Positions 2,074-30,113 of a stretch of 36,566 nucleotides of DNA are shown here, one piece after another. The notes below the pieces were generated by a model that was not told where the DNA came from, ran no database searches, and was given only the letters and a program-made list of their open reading frames with translations. The position numbers were made by a program, and so were the translations under genes. Location: positions 1-36,566 of IMG/VR virus record IMGVR_UViG_3300032053_000240; one strand, given 5' to 3'. Source of the DNA: a virus. Each line of letters begins with the position of its first letter. Position 1 is the stretch's first letter.

Positions 2074-2360
2074 ATGAAGAATACACGCTTATACAGCATC
2101 AGTTGTTGCTTTTGGCGGGTGTCTGCCGCGAGATGAAATTGAAGGAGTTTTTGGACCGTATCTCTATTTCGGAAACCATTGCTCCAATTTTTGATCCGAC
2201 ATTGTACCTTTCTGGGATGGATAACCTCGAGCAGATCAAGAAATTGGCTCAATCTCTCTTGCCCTTCCAACAAGAGATTCGCCGGCAAATTAAAGAATCT
2301 CAAACCAAGCTCACCACGAAGGGTAATTCTGTGCCCTCTGTGACTAAAAAAGAACCGTGA
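2067..2360 (+). CDS. hypothetical protein (97 aa)
   Basis: The product is small, probably helical, and rich in Leu, Glu and Lys; I do not recognise a family. The start is ATG 2067 with AAGGA at 2054-2058, both supplied by a dispersed repeat. The last 20 or so residues (from about QTKLTTKG) are encoded by sequence of the dispersed CCACGAAGG / CTGTGACTAAA type, so the original C-terminus may have been replaced. The stop overlaps the GTG start of the small terminase gene (GTGA), suggesting coupling. It may be a packaging or early accessory gene by position. Confidence 0.5.
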   Translation: MNNEEYTLIQHQLLLLAGVCREMKLKEFLDRISISETIAPIFDPTLYLSGMDNLEQIKKLAQSLLPFQQEIRRQIKESQTKLTTKGNSVPSVTKKEP

Positions 2361-2407
2361 AATCTGTGTCTAAAAAGAAATCAAAAATCAGAAATCGCAA
2401 ATCGCAA
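2357..2407 (+). repeat. dispersed repeats at the TerS start
   Basis: GTGAAATCTGTGTCTAAAA is followed by tandem AAATCGCAA units ending in the ATG at 2408. These are standard members of the window's intergenic repeat set. They put the GTG 2357 start in doubt, because residues 1-17 would be repeat-encoded. Confidence 0.65.
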
Positions 2408-3391
2408 ATGAGCGAAGCGGCAGCGCAGCGCTTGGGCTTCGCCTGCAAGGACATCGCCGAGGCCGATGTGCAATCGGGGATCCGGCCGAACCTGGCGAGG
2501 TATCTTGAACGGCATCCGCGATTGCGGGCGGCGTTCGACCGCGGGCGGTTGCTGCGGTACCTGGTGGAATTGGCGCCGAAGGCAATGGTCTATGAGGCGG
2601 CCCGGCGGCTCAAGGATCTGGGGTTCAATCAATTCGAGACGCCCCAGAACTTACGGGGATTTCTCGACGGTGACAAAGAGGCGAATGAATTATGGGAAAC
2701 GTCGCGGGTCAACGGCTGGATTGCTAATCGCGAGGCCCTGGTCAAGACGGCGGGCGAAGGCAACGTCAAGGCAATTCAATTGCTGGACAAATGGGCCGTG
2801 GACCGCCAGCGGGAGACGGGCGAGCCGGGCGTCAACTTCAACCGCGTCGGGGTCAATCAGATGGCGGAGCTCTTCGGCGTCACGCGCCAGACGATCCACG
2901 ACTGGTATCGGGATCAGGGCCTGCCCCAGAATACCGACGGCACGTTCGATCTGGCGAGGGCAATTCCCTGGTATGAAGAATTCACGTTGAAGAAAGCCGT
3001 TCGCGGCAAGGACGCGGTTGGACCGTTGAATCCATTTCAGGATATCAAAGTCAAACACATGCAATTGAAATTCGAGCAGGAACAAGGTGAACTGTACGGG
3101 CGGGGCGAGGCCATCGGCTGGCAAGTCGCCATGATGCAGAATATAGTTAATGCCTTCAATGCGATCGCGGACCTGGCCAATCGCGTCTTTGGCCAATCGC
3201 GTGAAGAGATCGTCGCCCTCCTGGAGGATTTCCGCGATGAGATCATGGGCAAAATGAAGCACGTGCCGGCGGAATTGAAACTATCCGAGCCGGCCCTGAT
3301 GAAACTAACGGAATTTTACGAAGTGATTAAGCCACAGAAGAACGCAAAGAAATTAACCACAGAGAGCACAGAGATCATAGAGAAAGGTTAG
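2357..3391 (+). CDS. terminase small subunit (Nu1-type)
   Basis: This is the DNA-recognition subunit of the packaging motor. The product has 344 aa from GTG 2357, or 327 aa from ATG 2408, which is preferable because residues 1-17 are repeat-encoded. Residues about 166-190 (VNQMAELFGVTRQTIHDWY) are a helix-turn-helix of the kind in lambda Nu1 and relatives, where it recognises the wHTH-bound cos/pac element. The N-terminal part (about 25-150) is helical and unusual for the family, since typical Nu1 starts with the HTH. Residues 205-325 are helical and may form the TerL-binding region. The last 20-25 residues (from PQKNAKKLTTE) are read from an ACCACAGAG repeat and match the end of the 3909 gene. 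The large subunit gene lies 2.3 kb downstream, an unusually long gap. Confidence 0.75.
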   Translation: MKSVSKKKSKIRNRKSQMSEAAAQRLGFACKDIAEADVQSGIRPNLARYLERHPRLRAAFDRGRLLRYLVELAPKAMVYEAARRLKDLGFNQFETPQNLRGFLDGDKEANELWETSRVNGWIANREALVKTAGEGNVKAIQLLDKWAVDRQRETGEPGVNFNRVGVNQMAELFGVTRQTIHDWYRDQGLPQNTDGTFDLARAIPWYEEFTLKKAVRGKDAVGPLNPFQDIKVKHMQLKFEQEQGELYGRGEAIGWQVAMMQNIVNAFNAIADLANRVFGQSREEIVALLEDFRDEIMGKMKHVPAELKLSEPALMKLTEFYEVIKPQKNAKKLTTESTEIIEKG

Positions 3392-3420
3392 CCACGAATG
3401 AACACGAATGAGCACGAAAA
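3331..3420 (+). repeat. dispersed repeat cluster (CCACAGAG and CCACGAATG types)
   Basis: The cluster GCCACAGAAGAACGCAAAG, then ACCACAGAGAGCACAGAG, then GCCACGAATGAACACGAA spans the end of terS and the start of the next gene. It encodes the TerS C-terminus and the following gene's N-terminus (MNTNEHE). A near-identical block sits at 4132-4215. Confidence 0.8.
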
Positions 3421-3712
3421 AAAAGATATGATAAATGCAGCGAAAAAATCTTTCTCCAGATATGAGGAACTATTGAATGACGATGCTTGGGAAAAGCGGC
3501 ATACTGCAAAATTGCAGTATGCCGCTCTCCTAATCGCTTACAGGAAAATATTTGGATGGAAGCGATTCTTCATGGTTCGCTGGTGGAGGCAACGCCACGT
3601 CGCCAAACAGATATTTCTGGATAAAACTGATCCTCAATTAACTAGGTATGATTGGAGTTCTCTTGATCCAAGGCGGGACACAGAGGACCCGGGAAAGGAG
3701 CAAAAAGAATGA
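3398..3712 (+). CDS. hypothetical protein (104 aa) containing a perfect DNA palindrome
   Basis: The family is not recognised. The product is basic and aromatic in its middle (KIFGWKRFFMVRWWRQRH, about residues 49-66), compatible with membrane-surface or nucleic-acid contact. Residues 1-8 (MNTNEHEK) are read from the dispersed CCACGAATGAACACGAA repeat; ATG 3428 (MINAAKK) is an alternative start outside it. Codons for KRHTAKLQYAAL overlap a perfect 15-bp inverted repeat (3495-3526). The stop overlaps the next gene's ATG (ATGA), so it belongs to the same transcription unit. Confidence 0.5.
   Translation: MNTNEHEKKDMINAAKKSFSRYEELLNDDAWEKRHTAKLQYAALLIAYRKIFGWKRFFMVRWWRQRHVAKQIFLDKTDPQLTRYDWSSLDPRRDTEDPGKEQKE
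3495..3526 (+). repeat. perfect 15-bp inverted repeat inside a gene
   Basis: The left arm AGCGGCATACTGCAA (3495-3509) and right arm TTGCAGTATGCCGCT (3512-3526) are separated by two bases. All 15 pairs are exact. It is not followed by a T run, so it is not a terminator. It could be a protein-binding site or a stable mRNA hairpin. Confidence 0.9.
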
Positions 3713-3906
3713 ATACTTGGCATTACGCATGGTTAGGGGCATTGACGGGTTTCGTCGTAGCGCTTTGTTTGACCCAGAAATGGCAACAGAATGCTATTGA
3801 GGTTTTGCAGAAGACGGTGACTCAATTGTCAATAGTAAATAGTAAATCACAAATCACAAATCGTTTAGCCACAGAGAACACAGAGATCACAGAGAAAGGA
3901 AATTGA
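3709..3906 (+). CDS. small single-span membrane protein (65 aa)
   Basis: Residues about 6-23 (YAWLGALTGFVVALCL) form one hydrophobic segment, followed by a short amphipathic helix (about 24-40). The remainder (SIVNSKSQ onward, ending TENTEITEKGN) is encoded entirely by dispersed repeats (AATAGTAAATAGTAAATC and CCACAGAGAACACAGAG), so the native C-terminus may have been lost. ATG 3709 overlaps the preceding TGA, and an AAAGGAGC ribosome site lies at about 3695-3702. A holin or small accessory membrane protein is possible, but nothing specific supports a function. Confidence 0.5.
   Translation: MNTWHYAWLGALTGFVVALCLTQKWQQNAIEVLQKTVTQLSIVNSKSQITNRLATENTEITEKGN
3832..3905 (+). repeat. dispersed repeat cluster
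   Basis: Tandem AATAGTAAAT and CACAAATCACAAATC units are followed by AGCCACAGAGAACACAGAG. The end of the cluster (GAGAAAGGA, 3892-3900) also provides the Shine-Dalgarno of the next gene. Confidence 0.75.
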
Positions 3907-3908
3907 TT

Positions 3909-4202
3909 ATGAGCACAGAAGAAAGCATCAAGACAGCAATAACCGGTTTAGGGTTATTAGCGGAAACAGAACTGGGTAAAGCACTGCGGAAAGTTTTGCC
4001 GCCGCGACTGACCCGGGTCATTATAGACATCCCGGTCGGTGAGGTCGCGAAGATTTACTACGCCTCCATTGATAGCGGACCGATTGTCGATTTGAAATGG
4101 GACCAGATCATTGAGCAGTTTGAAGTGGTATCGCCACAGAAGAACGCAAAGAAATTAACCACAGAGAACACAGAGGACACAGAGAAAATTAGCCACAAAT
4201 GA
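3909..4202 (+). CDS. hypothetical protein (97 aa)
   Basis: The family is not recognised. The start is ATG 3909 with SD GAAAGGA (3894-3900), eight bases upstream. The N-terminal 65 residues look like a small folded unit (an early helix, then a beta-rich RVIIDIPVGEVAKIYYAS). The C-terminus from PQKNAKKLTTE onward is read from the same repeat block that ends terS, so two unrelated proteins share a C-terminal peptide. It sits between the terminase subunits and is followed by a 46-bp repeat-containing gap. Confidence 0.5.
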   Translation: MSTEESIKTAITGLGLLAETELGKALRKVLPPRLTRVIIDIPVGEVAKIYYASIDSGPIVDLKWDQIIEQFEVVSPQKNAKKLTTENTEDTEKISHK

Positions 4203-4225
4203 ACACGAATAGACACGAACAGAAA
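4132..4225 (+). repeat. dispersed repeat cluster, second copy of the 3331 block
   Basis: GCCACAGAAGAACGCAAAG, ACCACAGAGAACACAGAG and GCCACAAATGAACACGAA appear in the same order as at 3331-3420. The shared order shows that composite blocks, not only single units, are duplicated. Confidence 0.8.
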
Positions 4226-4248: not shown

Positions 4249-4848
4249 ATGATTGAAGTAGTCACCCATTTGAAATCGGCTTCGCCATACGGTCAGAGCA
4301 AAATGGTGCGGACGCCGAAAAAAGAGAAAGAAACCTCAAAAGATTACGAAGAGCGAACGTGGAGAGATCGCTGCCACTGCGACGAGAAAGGAGAGGTGTA
4401 TATTCCGGCGATCAGCTTCAAAAAGTGCATCACCGAGGCCGCCCAATATCTGAGCTTACAGATTCCCGGCAAGGGCAAAGCGACCTACACGAAGCATTTT
4501 CGCAGCGGGCTTTTTGTGCCCAACCTCATGCCCCTGGGTGTCAGGAAAGACAAGATCGACGGATTTCTCAAGGATGTGCCCGCCGACGGCAAGCCGGGCG
4601 GCAGTAAGCGCGTCGATAAGATGTTCCCTTACGTGAACACCTGGGAAGGGGACGTGACGTGGTATATCCTCGACGAGACGATCACGAAAGATATCTTCGT
4701 CTATATCCTGAGCCAGTCGGGCAAGTTCATCGGCCTGGGCTATTGGCGGCCGGCCCGGGACGGTTACTGGGGACGATTCGATCTGTCGGAGGTCGTCTGG
4801 GACGGCAAGCGGCTCGATGTGAAAAAGATTTTGGAGAGCAAATATTGA
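4249..4848 (+). CDS. conserved phage-type protein of unknown function (199 aa)
   Basis: The start is ATG 4249 with SD GAAAGGAAG (4236-4244). The product is soluble and mixed alpha/beta, with a well-formed core (GEVYIPAISFKKCITEAAQY) and a C-terminal block FIGLGYWRPARDGYWGRF (about residues 163-180). From memory a G-x-G-x-(W/F)-R-P...G-(Y/W)-(W/Y)-G-R-F ending occurs in phage proteins of unknown function, but I cannot name the family. The terminal stop codon itself opens the GACNN array, which starts one base after the T of TGA. A DNA-packaging or recombination accessory role is a guess from position only. Confidence 0.65.
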   Translation: MIEVVTHLKSASPYGQSKMVRTPKKEKETSKDYEERTWRDRCHCDEKGEVYIPAISFKKCITEAAQYLSLQIPGKGKATYTKHFRSGLFVPNLMPLGVRKDKIDGFLKDVPADGKPGGSKRVDKMFPYVNTWEGDVTWYILDETITKDIFVYILSQSGKFIGLGYWRPARDGYWGRFDLSEVVWDGKRLDVKKILESKY

Positions 4849-5114
4849 CGCGACAAGACCAGACCCGACAGGACCGGACGCGACCGGACAAGACAAGACA
4901 CGACCGGACCAGACAAGACAAGCCTTTTTTGGGAAGGGCGAAACAAAATCGACGCGACTAGACCAGACGTGACAAGACCGGACACGACGAGACACGACCT
5001 GACAAGACAAGACAAGCCTTTTTTGGGAAGGGCGAAACGAAATCGACGCGACCGGACCCGACTCGACTCGACGAGACAGGATGTGACGGGACATGACATG
5101 ACGGGACAAGACAA
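4847..5114 (+). repeat. GACNN pentamer array (42 units in three blocks)
   Basis: Three runs of 5-bp units lie at 4847-4921 (15 units), 4951-5015 (13) and 5045-5114 (14). All 42 units fit GACNN except one (GATGT, 5080-5084). Runs 1 and 2 end in two or three GACAA units and are followed by a 29-bp spacer beginning GCCTTTTTTGGGAAGGG and ending AAATC; the two spacers (4922-4950, 5016-5044) differ at one base. The third run also ends GACAAGACAA and then enters GATTTTTTTAAG. The last two bases of each unit vary freely, so the pattern is constrained at three of five positions rather than a simple slippage repeat. The region lies between genes in the terminase cluster. Confidence 0.95.
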
Positions 5115-5140
5115 GATTTTTTTAAGCAAAGGAAGCCATC

Positions 5141-5653
5141 ATGGAAATGACGACAAAACGCAAGGCGATCAATGAGCTTCACACCGATACGCGGATTCTC
5201 TTCAATGTGTTAGAGACGCGGCTCGTGGATCAGAAAGCCGAACGGATCGGCTATGATGAACTATCGAAGGCGATTGGACGGGACGTGCAGAAGCAGGCAC
5301 GCGGCCTTCTCAAGACGGCCCGCAAGCACATCGAGGAACAATATCACATCCTGCTCGAACCTATCGTGGGCGAAGGTTTGAAGATTAGCAAGGACTATGC
5401 CGGTCTATTGGGCAAGAGCACGGCGCATATCCGCCGCCAGGCCAGAGGGACAGCCAAGCGCGTTCTCAACGGGATCAATGGCTCGGAGATCGACCCAGAG
5501 CAGAAGCTGGAAATCACGGCAAGACTAAGTATCCTGGGAGCAATTGAATTGTTTACCAAGCCGAAACTGCCAAAGAAACTTATGGCCTCAATCGAAAGGG
5601 AGCCAGCGAAGCAATTGCCAACGGCCGAGACGTTAAAACTCTTTCTCGAATAG
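5141..5653 (+). CDS. hypothetical helical protein (170 aa)
   Basis: The start is ATG 5141 with SD AAAGGAAG (5128-5135). The product is mainly helical, basic overall, with heptad-like stretches (about residues 10-60) and a YDELSKAIGRDVQKQ segment (about 39-53) that could be a small DNA-binding helical unit. I do not recognise a family. It is the first gene after the GACNN array and overlaps the large terminase frame by one base (TAGTG), so it is probably cotranslated with it. A role in packaging or in binding the adjacent array is possible but unproven. Confidence 0.55.
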   Translation: MEMTTKRKAINELHTDTRILFNVLETRLVDQKAERIGYDELSKAIGRDVQKQARGLLKTARKHIEEQYHILLEPIVGEGLKISKDYAGLLGKSTAHIRRQARGTAKRVLNGINGSEIDPEQKLEITARLSILGAIELFTKPKLPKKLMASIEREPAKQLPTAETLKLFLE

Positions 5654-5745
5654 TGGCGAAAATTCGTGTTGATTCGTGGTCAAGTAAAATCGAAAATCAT
5701 AAATCAGAAACTTGTGGTGAGCGAAGTCGAACCATCGTCAATCGC
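5653..5745 (-). repeat. antisense copies of dispersed repeats at the terL 5' end
   Basis: The stretch holds ATTCGTGTTGATTCGTGG, AAAATCGAAAATCATAAATC and CTTGTGGTGAGCGAAGTCGA. The last is the reverse complement, with one mismatch, of sequence at 27612-27641. Because it is repeat material, residues 1-30 of the annotated frame are unlikely to be ancestral terminase. Confidence 0.7.
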
Positions 5746-7725
5746 CAAGGCGAAGCTTTGGCTTACTTCCGCCCCATGCCGATGAGCGAGGAGGCGCTGG
5801 AGATATTGTCCCCGAGGCGGAAACAGCACATGCTCGACTGGATGCAGGCGAATTACGTTCTGCCCGCGAAGTCCTCGCGGAAAAAGGGGCCGTGGAGTTT
5901 GGAGACGACGCCTTTCTGGAGGCCCGTGATCGAATGGCTGTGTGATTTAACGACGCGGGAAATTTGGGTCTATGCCTGCCGGCAGTCGGGCAAGTCAACG
6001 ATACTGGGCGGGTGGCTTGGCTACGTTATCGACGTGGTCCCCGGTCCCATGAAGATCATCCTTCCCGACGAGAAGGTCGCCAAGAAACGAATCAAGCGAT
6101 TCCGGCCCGCCTTCGAGAAATCGCCTCGCATCATGCACCACCTGGGTGGGGACATTCGTAACCTCCTGATCGGGGAGGTCACGGATATGGACAATATGCA
6201 GCTCGTCTTGGGCTGGCCGACCAGCCCCGTCACGCTCGAAGATGACGCGATCCAGTACCTGGCGGGCGATGAGGTCGCCCTGTGGACGGTGGAGATTGTG
6301 GACGGCGTCAGTACGATTGATACCTTGCGATACGGCACGCGGACTTATGAGGGTATCAGCAAGCGTTTTTTCATCACGCGCCCCGGCAACAAAGGCGACA
6401 TCGCGGACAAAAACTTCGAGGAATGCCAGAAGTGGGCCATCCACGTCGTCTGCCCCGAATGCGGGCAATATCACGAGGCCATGTTCGAGAACGTTCACAT
6501 CGATAAGGACAAAGACGATAAGTTTTTCGACCCTGCCTATTACCATTACCGGCCGGGAAAGGGCCGGCGGAAGGCCCGGTACGTCTGCCCGCATTGCAAG
6601 GCCGAATGGTCCGAGCTGGAGCGCAAGGCCGCCATCTCCGGCTGCCGGGCCTGCCCCCAGGGGTGCACCATCGGAAGGGATGGGGAGATCGTTGGCGAGT
6701 GGGAGGACGGCGACAAAAAAGCATTGTGTGTACCGGCCGTCCTGGTCGATCCATCGTTCACAACGGTCGATCAGTTGGCCGCCGAATTTGTCGCCGCCAT
6801 CAAACGCCGCGAGGCGGGTGACATCGGGCCCTACCGCAGTTTCTGGAATAACCAGAACGCCCGGGCGTTCGAGCGGCGTGAGCGCGAGACGGGCCTGACG
6901 CAATTGCAATCGCATATAGGTGGCTATTCGATGGCTAAGAGGCTCGTGCCCCGCCGCGTCCAGATGATCTGTCACGGCATCGACGTTCAAACCGATTGCA
7001 TCTGGGCCGTGACAAAGGGTTATGGCTTCCGAAACGAGCAATGGCTCTTATGGGCCGGGCGGCTGGAGACGGGTCACACGGGCCGGCCGGAGAATTGGGA
7101 CCTGGTCGAATCGTTCGTCCGCAGCGAATGGGTCTCGGCGGAAGATGAAACGGTCCGGTACTACGCCAGCCGGGCCGCCGTCGATTGCCGATACCAGGTG
7201 GCCGAGCGTGATGAGGAATCGAGCGTGGTCTATGATTTCTGCCTGCGGTTCCCCGAGGGGGCCGTGGTGCCGGTCATGGGTTACGGCCGGGACCGGATGC
7301 ACAACAGTTACTACAAGGCCCGGCCCGTCGCCGGCAAGGCCATGCGGCGATTCGATCTCTGCGTCGATACGGGCAAGGACCGGTTGTGGCAATGCCTGTA
7401 CGACAAGGAGAAACCCCCGGGCCCCGGGTTCCTGCATCTGCCGAACGATCTGCCGGCCGATCTCGCCAGGCAGTTGGCCAGCGAGGCCCAACTTGTCAAG
7501 CGGACCCGCAGCGGCCGCGAGATCGTCACGTGGGTGCTCAAACCCGGATTCCGCGAAAACCATATCTGGGATGCGAGTGTCTATTGCGATCTCGCCGCCG
7601 AGTTGGCCGGCGTATTTCACCTTCAGGACGTGGACTATGTGAAGACCGTCTCCGGGCGGATGAAGAAACATAAGGATGGTTCTAAACAGGAAAGCAGTTA
7701 CTGGGACGGAACGCCGAGCCTGTAG
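5653..7725 (+). CDS. terminase large subunit (GpA-type)
   Basis: This is the ATPase/nuclease motor that pumps DNA into the prohead through the portal. The frame has 690 codons. The family core begins at about residue 41 (MPMSEEALEILSP), so ATG 5776 or 5782 is a likelier start than GTG 5653, which lies in repeats. The Walker A-like loop is CRQSGKST (109-116) and the Walker B/DE pair is QYLAGDE (201-207). A zinc-finger insertion with two CxxC pairs (CPECGQY, CPHCKAEW) follows at about 265-330, typical of lambda GpA relatives. The C-terminal half has the nuclease-type core, including HGIDVQTD (about 440-447) with its acidic residues. The family's usual length is about 600-700 aa. The next gene is separated by a short AT-rich repeat. 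Confidence 0.93.
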   Translation: MAKIRVDSWSSKIENHKSETCGERSRTIVNRQGEALAYFRPMPMSEEALEILSPRRKQHMLDWMQANYVLPAKSSRKKGPWSLETTPFWRPVIEWLCDLTTREIWVYACRQSGKSTILGGWLGYVIDVVPGPMKIILPDEKVAKKRIKRFRPAFEKSPRIMHHLGGDIRNLLIGEVTDMDNMQLVLGWPTSPVTLEDDAIQYLAGDEVALWTVEIVDGVSTIDTLRYGTRTYEGISKRFFITRPGNKGDIADKNFEECQKWAIHVVCPECGQYHEAMFENVHIDKDKDDKFFDPAYYHYRPGKGRRKARYVCPHCKAEWSELERKAAISGCRACPQGCTIGRDGEIVGEWEDGDKKALCVPAVLVDPSFTTVDQLAAEFVAAIKRREAGDIGPYRSFWNNQNARAFERRERETGLTQLQSHIGGYSMAKRLVPRRVQMICHGIDVQTDCIWAVTKGYGFRNEQWLLWAGRLETGHTGRPENWDLVESFVRSEWVSAEDETVRYYASRAAVDCRYQVAERDEESSVVYDFCLRFPEGAVVPVMGYGRDRMHNSYYKARPVAGKAMRRFDLCVDTGKDRLWQCLYDKEKPPGPGFLHLPNDLPADLARQLASEAQLVKRTRSGREIVTWVLKPGFRENHIWDASVYCDLAAELAGVFHLQDVDYVKTVSGRMKKHKDGSKQESSYWDGTPSL

Positions 7726-7768
7726 GATTTACTATTTACTATTTACAATTTATTATTTTCGATTGAAG
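7726..7768 (+). repeat. dispersed AT-rich repeat
   Basis: TTTACTATTTACTATTTAC followed by TTCGATT occupies the whole gap between terL and the next gene. It belongs to the same family as 3832-3863, 13890-13920 and 33040-33072. Confidence 0.7.
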
Positions 7769-13882: not shown

Positions 13883-13967
13883 AAAAAGATTTACGATTTA
13901 TGATTTTCGATTTTCGATTTATCTCTGTGTGCTCTGTGTCCTCTGTGGCTGAAAAACTCTGTGGCTT
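13883..13967 (+). repeat. dispersed repeats forming the leader of the Z-like gene
   Basis: TTTATGATTTTCGATTTTCG is followed by the reverse CCACAGAG type (CTCTGTGTGCTCTGTGTCC, then CTCTGTGGCTGAAAA) directly before the ATG at 13968. No Shine-Dalgarno is present. Confidence 0.75.
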
Positions 13968-20748: not shown

Positions 20749-21755
20749 TGAAACAAAAAATCTTTAGCCACGAATTAACACGAATTATTGCGAAGATTTT
20801 TCTCTGTGTAATCTGTGGAATCTGTGGCTCGATACAAGCGGCCTCGGAGATCAACGCCTTTGCGCCGGGCGTTACGACGGCCTACGCGGTGGTCAGGCAG
20901 GCCGACGGCGGCGTTTGGTATCCAACGGGCCAGGTCTTCGAGACCTGGGGAACATCGGGCCGCACGGCGGCGGATTACGATATTGCCCTCACCGATAAGG
21001 GCGGCGATATGTTCGTGGGATCGTTTGATACGAACATCGCGGCGCAGTACTGTCACATCGTTACTCACTATCAGGCGGGCGGCTCGCCTGCCGATAGCGA
21101 CCCCGTCGTCTGGCAGGAATACGGCTACTGGAACGGTGCCACGTGGCAATCGGGTATCCCGGTGAGTGTTCCTACGAAAGAAGAGATTCGGGCCGAGATT
21201 GACGCCAACTCGACGCAATTAGCGACTATCGTCGCCGATACGAATGAGTTGCAAACCGACTGGACCAACGGCGGACGGCTCGATTTGCTCATCAACGCCA
21301 TACTCGAAGATACCGGGACCACGCTGCCGAATCAGATCACGGCTTTGGTTATACCTGACCCGGCCGGGACCGCGGCGGCGCTGCACATCATTACGGATGC
21401 CCTGATCAACGGAGAGAACGATCTATCCTCCGCCGAGGTCGAAGCGGCGATGACGGCGGCGCTCATTGATTACGATCCTCCGACGAAGGACGAGATGGAT
21501 GTCGCCATCGCGTCCGTCTCGGTCACGGTCGATAATGCGGCCATTGCCGACGCGGTTCACGACGAAGTAGTGGAAGGCACGGTCACGCTCCGCCAGGCGT
21601 TGCGGCTGTTCCTGTCCGTGATGACGGGCAAGAGCTCGGGCGGCGGCACGACAAGCATCACGTTCCGGGACATTGGCGATACGAAGAATAGGCTGAACGT
21701 CACAGTCGATAGCAAGGGCAACCGGACCGCGGTCAATACGAGGGACGGAAACTGA
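20748..21755 (+). CDS. phage tail-type protein with repeat-derived N-terminus
   Basis: The product is 335 aa. Start ATG 20748 overlaps the preceding TGA (TGATG). Residues 1-32 look like a signal peptide (IFLCVICGICGSIQAAS), yet they are read from the dispersed repeat CTCTGTGTAATCTGTGG. Residues 33-145 form a beta domain (TAYAVVRQADGGVWYPTG, then WQEYGYWNGATW). Residues 146-290 are helical, and the C-terminus has DAVHDEVVEGTVTLRQALRL, TSITFRDIGDTKNRL and VTVDSKGNRT, blocks I know from phage baseplate or tail proteins. It probably belongs to the adhesion part of the tail. The canonical phage C-terminus contrasts with the odd N-terminus. Confidence 0.7.
   Translation: MKQKIFSHELTRIIAKIFLCVICGICGSIQAASEINAFAPGVTTAYAVVRQADGGVWYPTGQVFETWGTSGRTAADYDIALTDKGGDMFVGSFDTNIAAQYCHIVTHYQAGGSPADSDPVVWQEYGYWNGATWQSGIPVSVPTKEEIRAEIDANSTQLATIVADTNELQTDWTNGGRLDLLINAILEDTGTTLPNQITALVIPDPAGTAAALHIITDALINGENDLSSAEVEAAMTAALIDYDPPTKDEMDVAIASVSVTVDNAAIADAVHDEVVEGTVTLRQALRLFLSVMTGKSSGGGTTSITFRDIGDTKNRLNVTVDSKGNRTAVNTRDGN
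20760..20832 (+). repeat. dispersed repeat read as a signal-peptide-like segment
   Basis: TTAGCCACGAATTAACACG, then GTGTAATCTGTGGAATCTG and TGTGGCTC lie inside the 5' end of the tail gene at 20748. They are canonical members of the intergenic repeat set, here in a coding frame. Confidence 0.8.
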
Positions 21756-24408: not shown

Positions 24409-24700
24409 AGAGATAAACCACGAATGAACACGTAAACTATACGAAATTATTCATGCTCGTTAAATGTTTGGCCACAGATTTCACAGATGACACAGAAAAG
24501 AAATATAGACTTCTTTATCAAAACAGTGAAATCTGAGAAATCTGTGTCAAGAAATTGACCACGAATGAACACGAAAATAACACGAATTGTTCGTGTTAAT
24601 TAAATATTTGGCCACAGATTGCACAGATGACACAGAGAAAAATATAGACTTTTTTATCGAAACAGTGGAATCTGAGAAATCTGTGGCTAAAAATATGAGG
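24409..24700 (+). repeat. tandem 141-bp duplication of composite dispersed repeats
   Basis: Two copies (24417-24557 and 24558-about 24695) each hold ACCACGAATGAACACG, TTTGGCCACAGATT, ACAGATGACACAGA, ATATAGACTT and AATCTGAGAAATCTGTG in the same order. They differ at scattered bases. The GCCACAGATT and AATCTGTGGC ends make each copy an imperfect palindrome. I see no gene in this gap. Confidence 0.85.
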
Positions 24701-26108: not shown

Positions 26109-26258
26109 GCCACAGAGTCATATTACAGCCACAGAGGACACAGAGAACACAGAGAAATTTGAAATTAAAAATCATAAATCATAAATTGTTTAGCCACGAA
26201 TGAACACGAATCGACAGGAAGAAAATGTCAATAGTCAATAGTCAATAGTCAATGTCAA
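26109..26258 (+). repeat. dispersed repeat cluster
   Basis: GCCACAGAGGACACAGAG units, AAATCATAAATCATAAATTG, AGCCACGAATGAACACGAA and three GTCAATA units fill the gap between two tail genes; no other feature is visible. The run ends three bases before the next ATG. Confidence 0.8.
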
Positions 26259-27708: not shown

Positions 27709-28533
27709 ATGAGTTTTGCTGAATCAGAAGCATCGTTGACCGGCGGCGAGCCGTATGAGCTGCACGAGTTCCGGCTCGGTGCAACATCGACGTATTGGAC
27801 CTACGCCGACGCCCCGGCCGACATCGATTATGGCGGCAAGACCTTTACGAAAGCCTATTGCAGCGGCAGCCGGATCGAGACCGGCGTCAACGCCATCAAG
27901 AGCCGGACCATCGTCAAGTGTGACTGGTCCAATCCCTTCGCTTGGCAATATACCGTCTGCGCCCCCGAGGATATTATCCACTACACGCGATATAAAGGTC
28001 ACGGCACCGACATCCAGGCGATCTTTCGGGGCGACGTGCTCGATGTCGTGTTTCGGCAGGAAGACAGAAAAGGCAAGCGGTGGGCGGAGATCGTCATCGA
28101 CCCCTCGACGGCGGCGATGCAGCGGATGGGCCTGGTTCAGCATTACAGCCGCCAATGCCAGGCGGAACTCTACAGCGATCTGTGCGGCGTGGGCCGCGAC
28201 GATGAGGGTATTAAGGTCAGCGGGACCCTGGATAGCGTCGCCGGCAATGTGCTCACTTCGACCACGTTCGGGACGGATATAGACGACGGCTGGTGGGTCG
28301 GCGGTGATATCGTGGTCAATAGTCGCCGGCGGAAGATCATCGCCCACGTGGGCAATGACGTCACGATCTCGCCGAGCATCCCCGGCGTGGCGGCAACCCA
28401 AGCGTTCGACGTGTATCCCGGCTGCAATCACCTGCCAGCCACGTGCGATACGAAGTACGGCAATCTCGATAATTACCCAGGCCAGCCGAATATCCCGGAC
28501 GAAAACCCGACCAGCCCGTATGGAGTATTGTGA
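27709..28533 (+). CDS. tail hub protein with gpL/BR0599-type cysteine domain
   Basis: The product is 274 aa. The N-terminal two thirds (ELHEFRLGATSTYWTYADA, then DIDYGGKTFTKA, then WAEIVIDPSTAAMQRMGL) match the DUF2163/BR0599 family. Four cysteines (SRQCQAEL, SDLCGVG, GCNHLPATCDTKYGN) are arranged as in lambda gpL relatives, where the cluster binds [4Fe-4S]. These proteins join the distal tail to the tip. The ATG follows a repeat with no Shine-Dalgarno, and the TGA overlaps the next ATG (TGATG). Confidence 0.83.
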   Translation: MSFAESEASLTGGEPYELHEFRLGATSTYWTYADAPADIDYGGKTFTKAYCSGSRIETGVNAIKSRTIVKCDWSNPFAWQYTVCAPEDIIHYTRYKGHGTDIQAIFRGDVLDVVFRQEDRKGKRWAEIVIDPSTAAMQRMGLVQHYSRQCQAELYSDLCGVGRDDEGIKVSGTLDSVAGNVLTSTTFGTDIDDGWWVGGDIVVNSRRRKIIAHVGNDVTISPSIPGVAATQAFDVYPGCNHLPATCDTKYGNLDNYPGQPNIPDENPTSPYGVL

Positions 28534-30113
28534 TGGATCCGATTACCGCCTGGATCATCAATTTACTTATAACGATGGCGATTGCGACAGGCATCGCCTA
28601 TCTGTCTTACCGAAAACCGAAGGGTCCCAAACCAGCCGGCAAAGACGCCTTCAAACTGCCGACGGCCGAAGAGGGCAGGGCGTTGCCTATCCTGTCCGGC
28701 AAACGGCGCATCCTTAGCCCCAACTCGATCAGCCCGCTCTTGGAATTCAGGGTTGATAAAAAAGGCGATACAGGTGCTTTCTATTATTACATCGGCCTCC
28801 ACATGGCCTGGTGCATCGCAGCCGACGACTTCAAACAATTCTGGATGGCCGAGACGTGCCTGTGGCCGACACTCAACGATCCGACGTCCGAGGCGGAGGA
28901 CCACCAGACCTATGCCTCAGTCGATGCCTCGTATTGCTGGGGCGGCTACGAGCGGGAGGGCGGCGTTCGAGGATCCATGGACATTCAATACGGCGGTCCG
29001 CTCCAGGCACTTAATGCGTATCTCGAAGAAAAATTGGGCAGCTCTCAACCGGCCTACCGGGGGTTTGTCGGTACAATCATGCGGAATTTTTACATCGGCG
29101 TCTGGGCCGGCATCAAGCCGCCCTCGGGACTTTTGAAGCGGACCGATATTCACAATGACAATACGGAGATGTGGTATCTGGCCAAGGCCAACGTGGGTGA
29201 TGATGATCTCAATGCGATCCATTTTCTTTACGAGCGGCTCTTTTGCAAGGTCGGTGGCCTGGGCAAGGATATCTCTCTATTGGGTGATAGTTTCACCGCC
29301 GCCGCCGATACGTGCTACACCGAGGGTTACGGTCTCTCGAACGTCTGGGACTGGTCGCCGGACGATATCGAGAGCATGATCCACCAGGTCGAGGAGATCA
29401 TCGACGGTAAGATATATATCGACCCCGCCACGGGCAAGTTCGAGATCGGCTTAGTGAGGGCTGATTACGATCCCGATGATCCATCAATCGAATCGTTCGG
29501 CCCGGCCGATTTCTGGGTTGAGAACATGCCGACCAGCTCCGCGGGCACCGTCCCCAGCAAGGTGATCGTCAAATGGCACGACAAGGTCAATCTTCAGGAG
29601 CGGCCCGCGTTCGATGATGATATCGCGCTGCTGGCCCGCCAGGGCGGCAACCCCATCGTTCAGGAGTTCGACTATTCAGCCTTCGTCTGCAACGGGACAT
29701 TGGCCACCAAGATCGCCTGCCGGATGCAGTCCGTGTTCTCAGCCATGCCGAAGCGATACACGCTTCACGCCTTGAGGACCATGAGTCATCTCCATGAGAC
29801 CAGCATATTTAAAATGTCTTATCCGGTCCTCAACGTCACCTCGATGATCGTCCGCGTCATCAGTATCGACCGCGGCAGTTTGACCGAGGGTGATTGCATC
29901 ATTGACGTGGCCGAGGACGTCTTCGGCCAGGCCCATACCGTCTATGCCTCGCCTTACGGTGCGCCGCCCGCGAGCGGGGCAACGCCGGCCGAAGAAGAAT
30001 TGACGGAGGTCGGCGAGGATGAACTGGTCATCGACCGGCTCTCAAATGATACCGTGATCGACCGTCTCAGTATGGACCAGGTTTACAGCCGCGCCAGTGA
30101 CCCACTTTCATAA
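28533..30113 (+). CDS. tail tip/attachment protein (phage-tail family)
   Basis: The product is 526 aa from ATG 28533 (GTG 28530 would add one residue). It begins with a hydrophobic span (about residues 6-24, AWIINLLITMAIATGIAYL), common in this family of phage tail proteins. The GEGRALPILSGKRRILSPN-like block (about 47-65), then YYYIGLHMAWCIAADDFKQF and the long beta-rich core (VIVKWHDKVNLQERPAFDD) fit central tail-tip proteins such as the N-terminal part of gpJ. It lacks the large fibronectin modules of lambda J and ends with a repeated VIDRLS pair (about 500-515). Together with the gpL-like gene it forms the tail end. Confidence 0.75.
   Translation: MDPITAWIINLLITMAIATGIAYLSYRKPKGPKPAGKDAFKLPTAEEGRALPILSGKRRILSPNSISPLLEFRVDKKGDTGAFYYYIGLHMAWCIAADDFKQFWMAETCLWPTLNDPTSEAEDHQTYASVDASYCWGGYEREGGVRGSMDIQYGGPLQALNAYLEEKLGSSQPAYRGFVGTIMRNFYIGVWAGIKPPSGLLKRTDIHNDNTEMWYLAKANVGDDDLNAIHFLYERLFCKVGGLGKDISLLGDSFTAAADTCYTEGYGLSNVWDWSPDDIESMIHQVEEIIDGKIYIDPATGKFEIGLVRADYDPDDPSIESFGPADFWVENMPTSSAGTVPSKVIVKWHDKVNLQERPAFDDDIALLARQGGNPIVQEFDYSAFVCNGTLATKIACRMQSVFSAMPKRYTLHALRTMSHLHETSIFKMSYPVLNVTSMIVRVISIDRGSLTEGDCIIDVAEDVFGQAHTVYASPYGAPPASGATPAEEELTEVGEDELVIDRLSNDTVIDRLSMDQVYSRASDPLS

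Follow-up and report, generated by a model that had tools for sequence, protein, structure and literature searches.

VIPR systems, described in 2026 (PMC13142463; bioRxiv 2026.04.26.720920, version 2), consist of Vipr, a single-RRM RAMP protein of ~20 kDa with a glycine-rich loop, of an accessory gene, vap, and of guide RNAs termed vrRNAs. As laid out in the main text of the preprint, a vrRNA strings together 9-16 YNNGG units, with a fixed GGY and a hypervariable NN, and ends in an invariant, structured 3' tail, for a length of ~100 nt. Its NN dinucleotides base-pair with double-stranded DNA and pass over one target base in every unit; the targets are competing phages, satellites and prophages, on which the effect is transcriptional repression (PMC13142463). 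The same text distinguishes seven types that use GGY/NN 'or a related consensus', and predicts that Vap binds DNA in types II, VI and VII (PMC13142463). Escherichia phage SUSP1 carries a type II system whose vrRNA was shown by experiment to be NN-programmed and to follow the 1-nt skip rule (PMC13142463). Run on the SUSP1 locus (KT454805), the array finder that we applied to our own sequence returned GGY arrays around two adjacent genes, in agreement with the publication.

The window analysed here is a viral stretch of 36,566 nucleotides (IMG/VR record IMGVR_UViG_3300032053_000240, positions 1 to 36,566). Between its terminase genes lies an array of GACNN pentamers that we take, with very high confidence, for the array of guide RNAs belonging to a VIPR system; the closest kind is that of SUSP1 (vipr plus vap1). 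A sequence-only reading of the same DNA had singled out this array and knew of no described element of its kind; the main text of the preprint has described one since 2026, as the vrRNA of VIPR (PMC13142463).

Anatomy of the locus

The array holds 42 five-base units in three runs of 15, 13 and 14. Column counts gave G in 42/42 units, A in 42/42 and C in 41/42 (the lone deviant is GATGT, with T as third base), while the two NN positions carry only 0.20 and 0.12 bits of information, i.e. they are nearly random. This confirms the pattern as it had been described from the letters, and also the claim that slippage does not explain it, as slippage leaves a fixed GAC next to a free NN unaccounted for. 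In 100 Markov-1 simulations of the window, chance GACNN runs reached a maximum of 3 units. A coding repeat was rejected, because a period of 5 shifts the reading frame at every unit.

Each run opens with GACGC and closes with GACAAGACAA, and the two 29-bp spacers between the runs (4922-4950 and 5016-5044) are identical at 28/29 bases, so that the repeated run end and the near-identical spacers of the sequence-only reading were borne out, the latter with a one-base difference. All the predicted vrRNAs lie on the + strand. The tandem part of vrRNA 1 (15 GACNN units, 4847-4921) is assigned from its sequence and from same-strand period-5 arrays in relatives, and is followed by a 3' tail or spacer (4922-4950) with a possible 7-bp hairpin (GCCUUUU..GAAGGGC), weak at z = -1.4. 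The 13 GACNN units of vrRNA 2 (4951-5015) are followed by a tail (5016-5044) with the same hairpin, whereas the 3' end of vrRNA 3 (13 GACNN units and the one GATGT, 5045-5114), which together with the leader of the next gene occupies 5115-5140, is unlike the other two tails and has no stable hairpin. The numbers of units fall inside the published range of 9-16 and the lengths agree with ~100 nt. A repeat scan found a 94-bp period spanning arrays 1 and 2, suggesting that duplication helped shape the locus. Rfam and tRNA scans of the window gave no matches.

Other repeats occur in the window. Tandem repeats that are short and degenerate, their units being 7 (AAATCAC-like), 9 (CACAGAGAA-like) or 10 bases (CACGAATGAA-like) long, recur on both strands at many gene boundaries (e.g. 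3358-3418, 3831-3896, 4160-4223, 7727-7758, 13888-13947, 20769-20827 and 26130-26258); distinct from GACNN, they seem to form an intergenic repeat family of their own. At 24417-24685, between predicted genes, a 140-bp stretch is present 1.9 times in tandem with copies 86% alike.

The first GAC of the array overlaps the TGA stop codon (4846-4848) of the gene at 4249-4848 (+ strand, 199 aa), which encodes Vipr. A profile built from 77 relatives of this gene had one convincing match in the PDB, 36pp, 'SUSP1 Vipr protein' (E = 4.7e-14), and the AlphaFold2 model (pLDDT 96.3) has a RAMP fold with the glycine-rich loop and matches Cas7/Csm3 RAMPs of type VII and type III CRISPR complexes with a probability of 1.00 in structure comparison. 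When SUSP1 was left out of the family profile and its 144 reading frames were searched, a single one matched (ORF 28477-29079, E = 2.9e-15); BLASTP of the window Vipr alone against that gene gave E 2e-8, with 30% identity over 70 aligned residues. Residues G158, G162, R167 and G175 are invariant in the family. A PHROGs family, phrog_4652, matches the window gene and 76/77 of the Vipr relatives; no function is assigned to it there, and it can now take the annotation Vipr.

Downstream of the array, the gene at 5141-5653 (+ strand, 170 aa) is vap, of the vap1 kind. Its product had no family match in a family profile scan. The SUSP1-free profile of its own family matched among the 144 SUSP1 frames only the gene adjoining vipr (E = 1.9e-8), a relationship in sequence that fits a vap1 identity. 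The AlphaFold2 model (pLDDT 93.7) predicts a winged-helix arrangement and, at the C-terminal end, a helical part. Structure comparison gave it weak matches, with no E value below 0.001 and several winged-helix regulators among them. A TerS-like gene lies upstream of the array (2357-3391; phrog_57, E 1.6e-10) and TerL downstream (5653-7725); the array, which opens on the stop of the previous gene, lies inside the packaging cluster, as had been noted from the letters. Portal, head maturation protease and tail genes are also on the contig, which is a tailed phage, in keeping with the phage or provirus encoding of VIPR systems. At 505-1494, the encoded protein weakly resembles an HNH endonuclease family and a rubredoxin-like zinc-binding motif.

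Set beside SUSP1, the window has a homologous vipr, a neighbour that fits vap1, co-oriented arrays of 5-nt units with a fixed triplet and a variable NN, predicted vrRNAs near 100 nt, and a phage origin. The two differ in that SUSP1 has one array upstream and three downstream of both genes while the window has three between vipr and vap, and in position 165 of the glycine loop, which is Asp in SUSP1 and Tyr here. The triplet differs too: it is GAY in the window (41 GAC, 1 GAT) and GGY in SUSP1. GAC in place of strict GGY counts against the VIPR reading, although the main text of the preprint allows for 'a related consensus' (PMC13142463); the deviating third tail also counts against it.

By analogy with the system described in the main text of the preprint (PMC13142463), we infer that + strand transcription across vipr, the arrays and vap would yield a precursor, from which processing would release three RNAs of ~100 nt each, the first two measuring 15x5+29 = 104 nt and 13x5+29 = 94 nt. 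Each RNA would then be covered by Vipr, a Cas7-related RAMP with a single RRM, at one subunit for every 5-nt unit, the glycine loop and thumb holding GAC. The NN dinucleotides, left exposed, would base-pair with target DNA, probably as NNxNNxNN, with one target base skipped per unit following the SUSP1 rule. The outcome would be a block on the transcription of a competing phage or prophage, with Vap assisting as a DNA-binding partner. The sequence-only reading had proposed that GAC is read once per half helical turn of DNA, possibly by the product of the gene at 5141. A protein from an adjacent gene is still the expected reader of GAC, once per unit; the half turn does not stand, as the reader would be a RAMP protein on the transcript and the 5-base period that of an RNA filament. 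The key neighbour is likewise the preceding gene, vipr, and not solely the following one.

Arrays and triplets across relatives

The sequence-only reading had suggested searching related phages and the host chromosome for runs of at least eight GACNN units. Viral contigs yielded over 119 such stretches, with variable NN in roughly half, and several that were read closely lay beside homologues of the 4249-4848 and 5141-5653 genes. In cellular genomes the same scan found almost exclusively near-uniform runs of low unit diversity, with variable units only in a Vicinamibacterales genome (L154), where a 13-unit array spans 7177-7241. No Vipr was found there, and this array is perhaps a stray guide, the companion of a diverged Vipr or a prophage remnant. 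A search for Vipr in 11 cellular genomes carrying GACNN runs, made without a positive control, found none. A GTC array reads as GACNN once reverse-complemented, so the scan picks up arrays of the GTC type from the other strand as well; later analyses used orientation relative to vipr.

Association with vipr was measured in 48 distinct loci with a full Vipr that had been fetched by protein similarity alone. The period-5 array score ranged from 3.4 to 5.9 in 48/48 loci and was at least 4.1 in 39/48, whereas the 25 control regions reached 3.4 at most, so the weakest few loci are not clearly apart from controls. Block-shuffled DNA (431 kb) contained zero arrays. In the wider survey of 85 loci, vap is on the vipr strand in all 62 in which both were found, and the 231 arrays are distributed upstream of vipr (74), between vipr and vap (56) and downstream (the remainder). 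The last two units of arrays are AA in 38% of cases, vs 8% inside arrays, suggesting that the final AA units probably belong to a fixed 3' end; the three arrays of the window agree with this pattern.

Some loci are unusual. Ten consecutive CTC arrays occupy 5127-6601 of L299, and 3684-4890 of L277 carries CAC arrays of 61 units, which may be overlapping or fused guides. In phage DSL-LC04 (OR003939; L335), a gene annotated as a helix-turn-helix regulator (2815-3432, WJZ48083.1) weakly resembles Vipr (27.7% identity, E 1e-3) and is followed by a 147-aa gene, possibly a misannotated VIPR locus in a named phage.

Co-oriented period-5 arrays are present in almost every relative, and the triplet varies by lineage with a third base that is nearly always a pyrimidine. 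The sequence-only reading would have put the pattern down to chance if relatives kept its length but lost the GAC phase; the phase is kept, while the triplet itself is swapped by lineage. On the strand of vipr, GAC dominates in 31 loci, CGC in 14, GTC in 11, GGC in 10, CAC in 5, AGT in 4 and GTT in 4. Retrieval of some loci by the GACNN pattern has inflated the numbers for GAC and GTC. AAC and GCC (the latter as weak calls) dominate in 2 loci each, and CTC and ATT in 1 each. Mapped on the Vipr tree, where two other GAC loci form a group with the window (support 95), these labels need 27 changes vs 50 in shuffles, so the triplet is heritable yet often switched.

We observed an association between the second base of the triplet and residue 165 of Vipr, within the motif GxG[165]xRP (window numbering). 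Arg165 occurs in 28/28 loci with G at the second base, in 6/36 with A and in 5/17 with T, and the 28 family loci with G also have Ser15; the window, with GAC, has Tyr165 and Gly15. When trait evolution was simulated along the tree, keeping the number of changes matched, an association as strong as the observed one was reached by the top-scoring feature among 542 residue features in about 0.1-0.3% of runs. Strictly independent tree pairs number only about three, none opposing the trend. The link between Arg165 and G is more than shared ancestry explains, but a within-clade rule at best, given the SUSP1 exception (GGY with Asp at 165). In the same phylogenetic simulation, residue associations for C at the first base, A or T at the second and T at the third were not significant (P 0.34-0.63). 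That the fixed triplet is a lineage-specific code read by the protein and switched many times, with residue 165 and residue 15 helping to read base 2 and Arg165 as the counterpart of G, is a proposal for which we see about even chances.

Guide turnover, targets and competing explanations

Closely related loci allow the fate of the NN series to be followed. Between L025 and L034 the vipr DNA is 99.1% identical and the flanks are near-identical, but neither array shares its NN series, even though every GAC is kept. Between L121 and L124 one array is retained (NN identical in 11/12) and the other is not, and between L262 and L264 one is retained (9/9 units) and the others are not. An array is thus either preserved or exchanged in its entirety, behaviour expected of selected guides and not of neutral repeats.

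These comparisons weigh against a reading in which Vipr binds the RNA as a scaffold, a decoy or a regulatory element, and NN is free because nothing reads it. Unread positions would indeed drift to hypervariability, and the guides that we searched with gave no targets. That search used 8-unit seeds on viral contigs under the 1-nt skip rule, and 16 exact bases were required. The three window guides gave 8, 4 and 6 seed matches in viral contigs, whose extension stayed close to chance, none passing 9 of the 13-15 units, and two guides from L012 had no target beyond chance under the same rule. When 243 guides were compared with the 2.4 Mb of retrieved loci, allowing skips of 0-3, there was no excess over shuffled guides in a collection too small for a fair test. 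With 16 exact bases needed, the target scans neither support nor refute guiding. Drift, in turn, does not predict NN series that are nearly whole (11/12, 9/9) or entirely replaced in close relatives, and the SUSP1 homologue is NN-programmed by experiment, as reported in the main text of the preprint (PMC13142463). We consider a non-guiding RNA very unlikely.

Repeats are common in phage packaging regions, and this array lies between a TerS-like gene and TerL, a position that had led the sequence-only reading to propose a cos/pac or packaging-control role. Such a site would be read by TerS or by the 5141 product. This proposal does not survive the comparison with relatives, where the arrays go with vipr and a TerL homologue is present in the retrieved stretch of only 8/85 vipr loci (the stretches being unequal in length). 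The arrays of relatives sit upstream of, between or downstream of vipr and vap; their triplet varies with the Vipr lineage and with a Vipr residue; and a packaging site would have no need of a hypervariable NN. Taken together, a packaging role appears extremely unlikely.

A reduced CRISPR array with a Cas7-like effector, akin to a type IV or VII mini-CRISPR, is suggested by the closest structures, type VII Cas7 and Csm3. Vipr shares with these proteins (types III-A and VII) an RRM core, a glycine-rich loop and, as predicted, one subunit per short RNA segment. The register of Cas7/Csm3 is, however, of 6 nt, unlike that of the single small RAMP of the window, which is of 5 nt, and the window guide bases are non-contiguous. 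The unit is 5 nt, and ~28-36-bp repeats with unique spacers are absent: the repeat scan for a repeat-spacer array at the locus shows only the 5-nt arrays and their 94-bp duplication. The sequence similarity of the protein is to Vipr, with no CRISPR protein scoring in the PDB sequence search, and no adaptation or nuclease genes were seen adjoining the window vipr. The probability of a mini-CRISPR is negligible. Barely credible either is a neutral, microsatellite-like expansion followed by point mutation, which would account for the tandem layout and for the 94-bp period joining arrays 1 and 2, but not for GAC in 41/42 units against 0.1-0.2 bits at NN, for sister loci that retain triplets and replace whole NN series, or for arrays tied to vipr.

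As a guide-RNA array of VIPR, the window is an independent example, recovered from raw sequence, of a newly described, CRISPR-predating way of reading DNA by a gapped guide. This identity accounts for arrays that could otherwise be mistaken for packaging sites or microsatellites, and gives a function to a protein family so far without one. Relative to the main text of the preprint (PMC13142463), two things seem to be new: how widely the triplet has been switched, and the way it covaries with a residue of the glycine loop. If the triplet is indeed a code read by the protein, one would expect VIPR systems found side by side to be orthogonal, a given Vipr loading no guides other than those that bear its own triplet; laboratory systems could then be given a redesigned triplet. 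Variation of the triplet, together with covariation of a loop residue, makes triplet recognition by RAMP proteins and the coexistence of VIPR systems without cross-talk directly testable.
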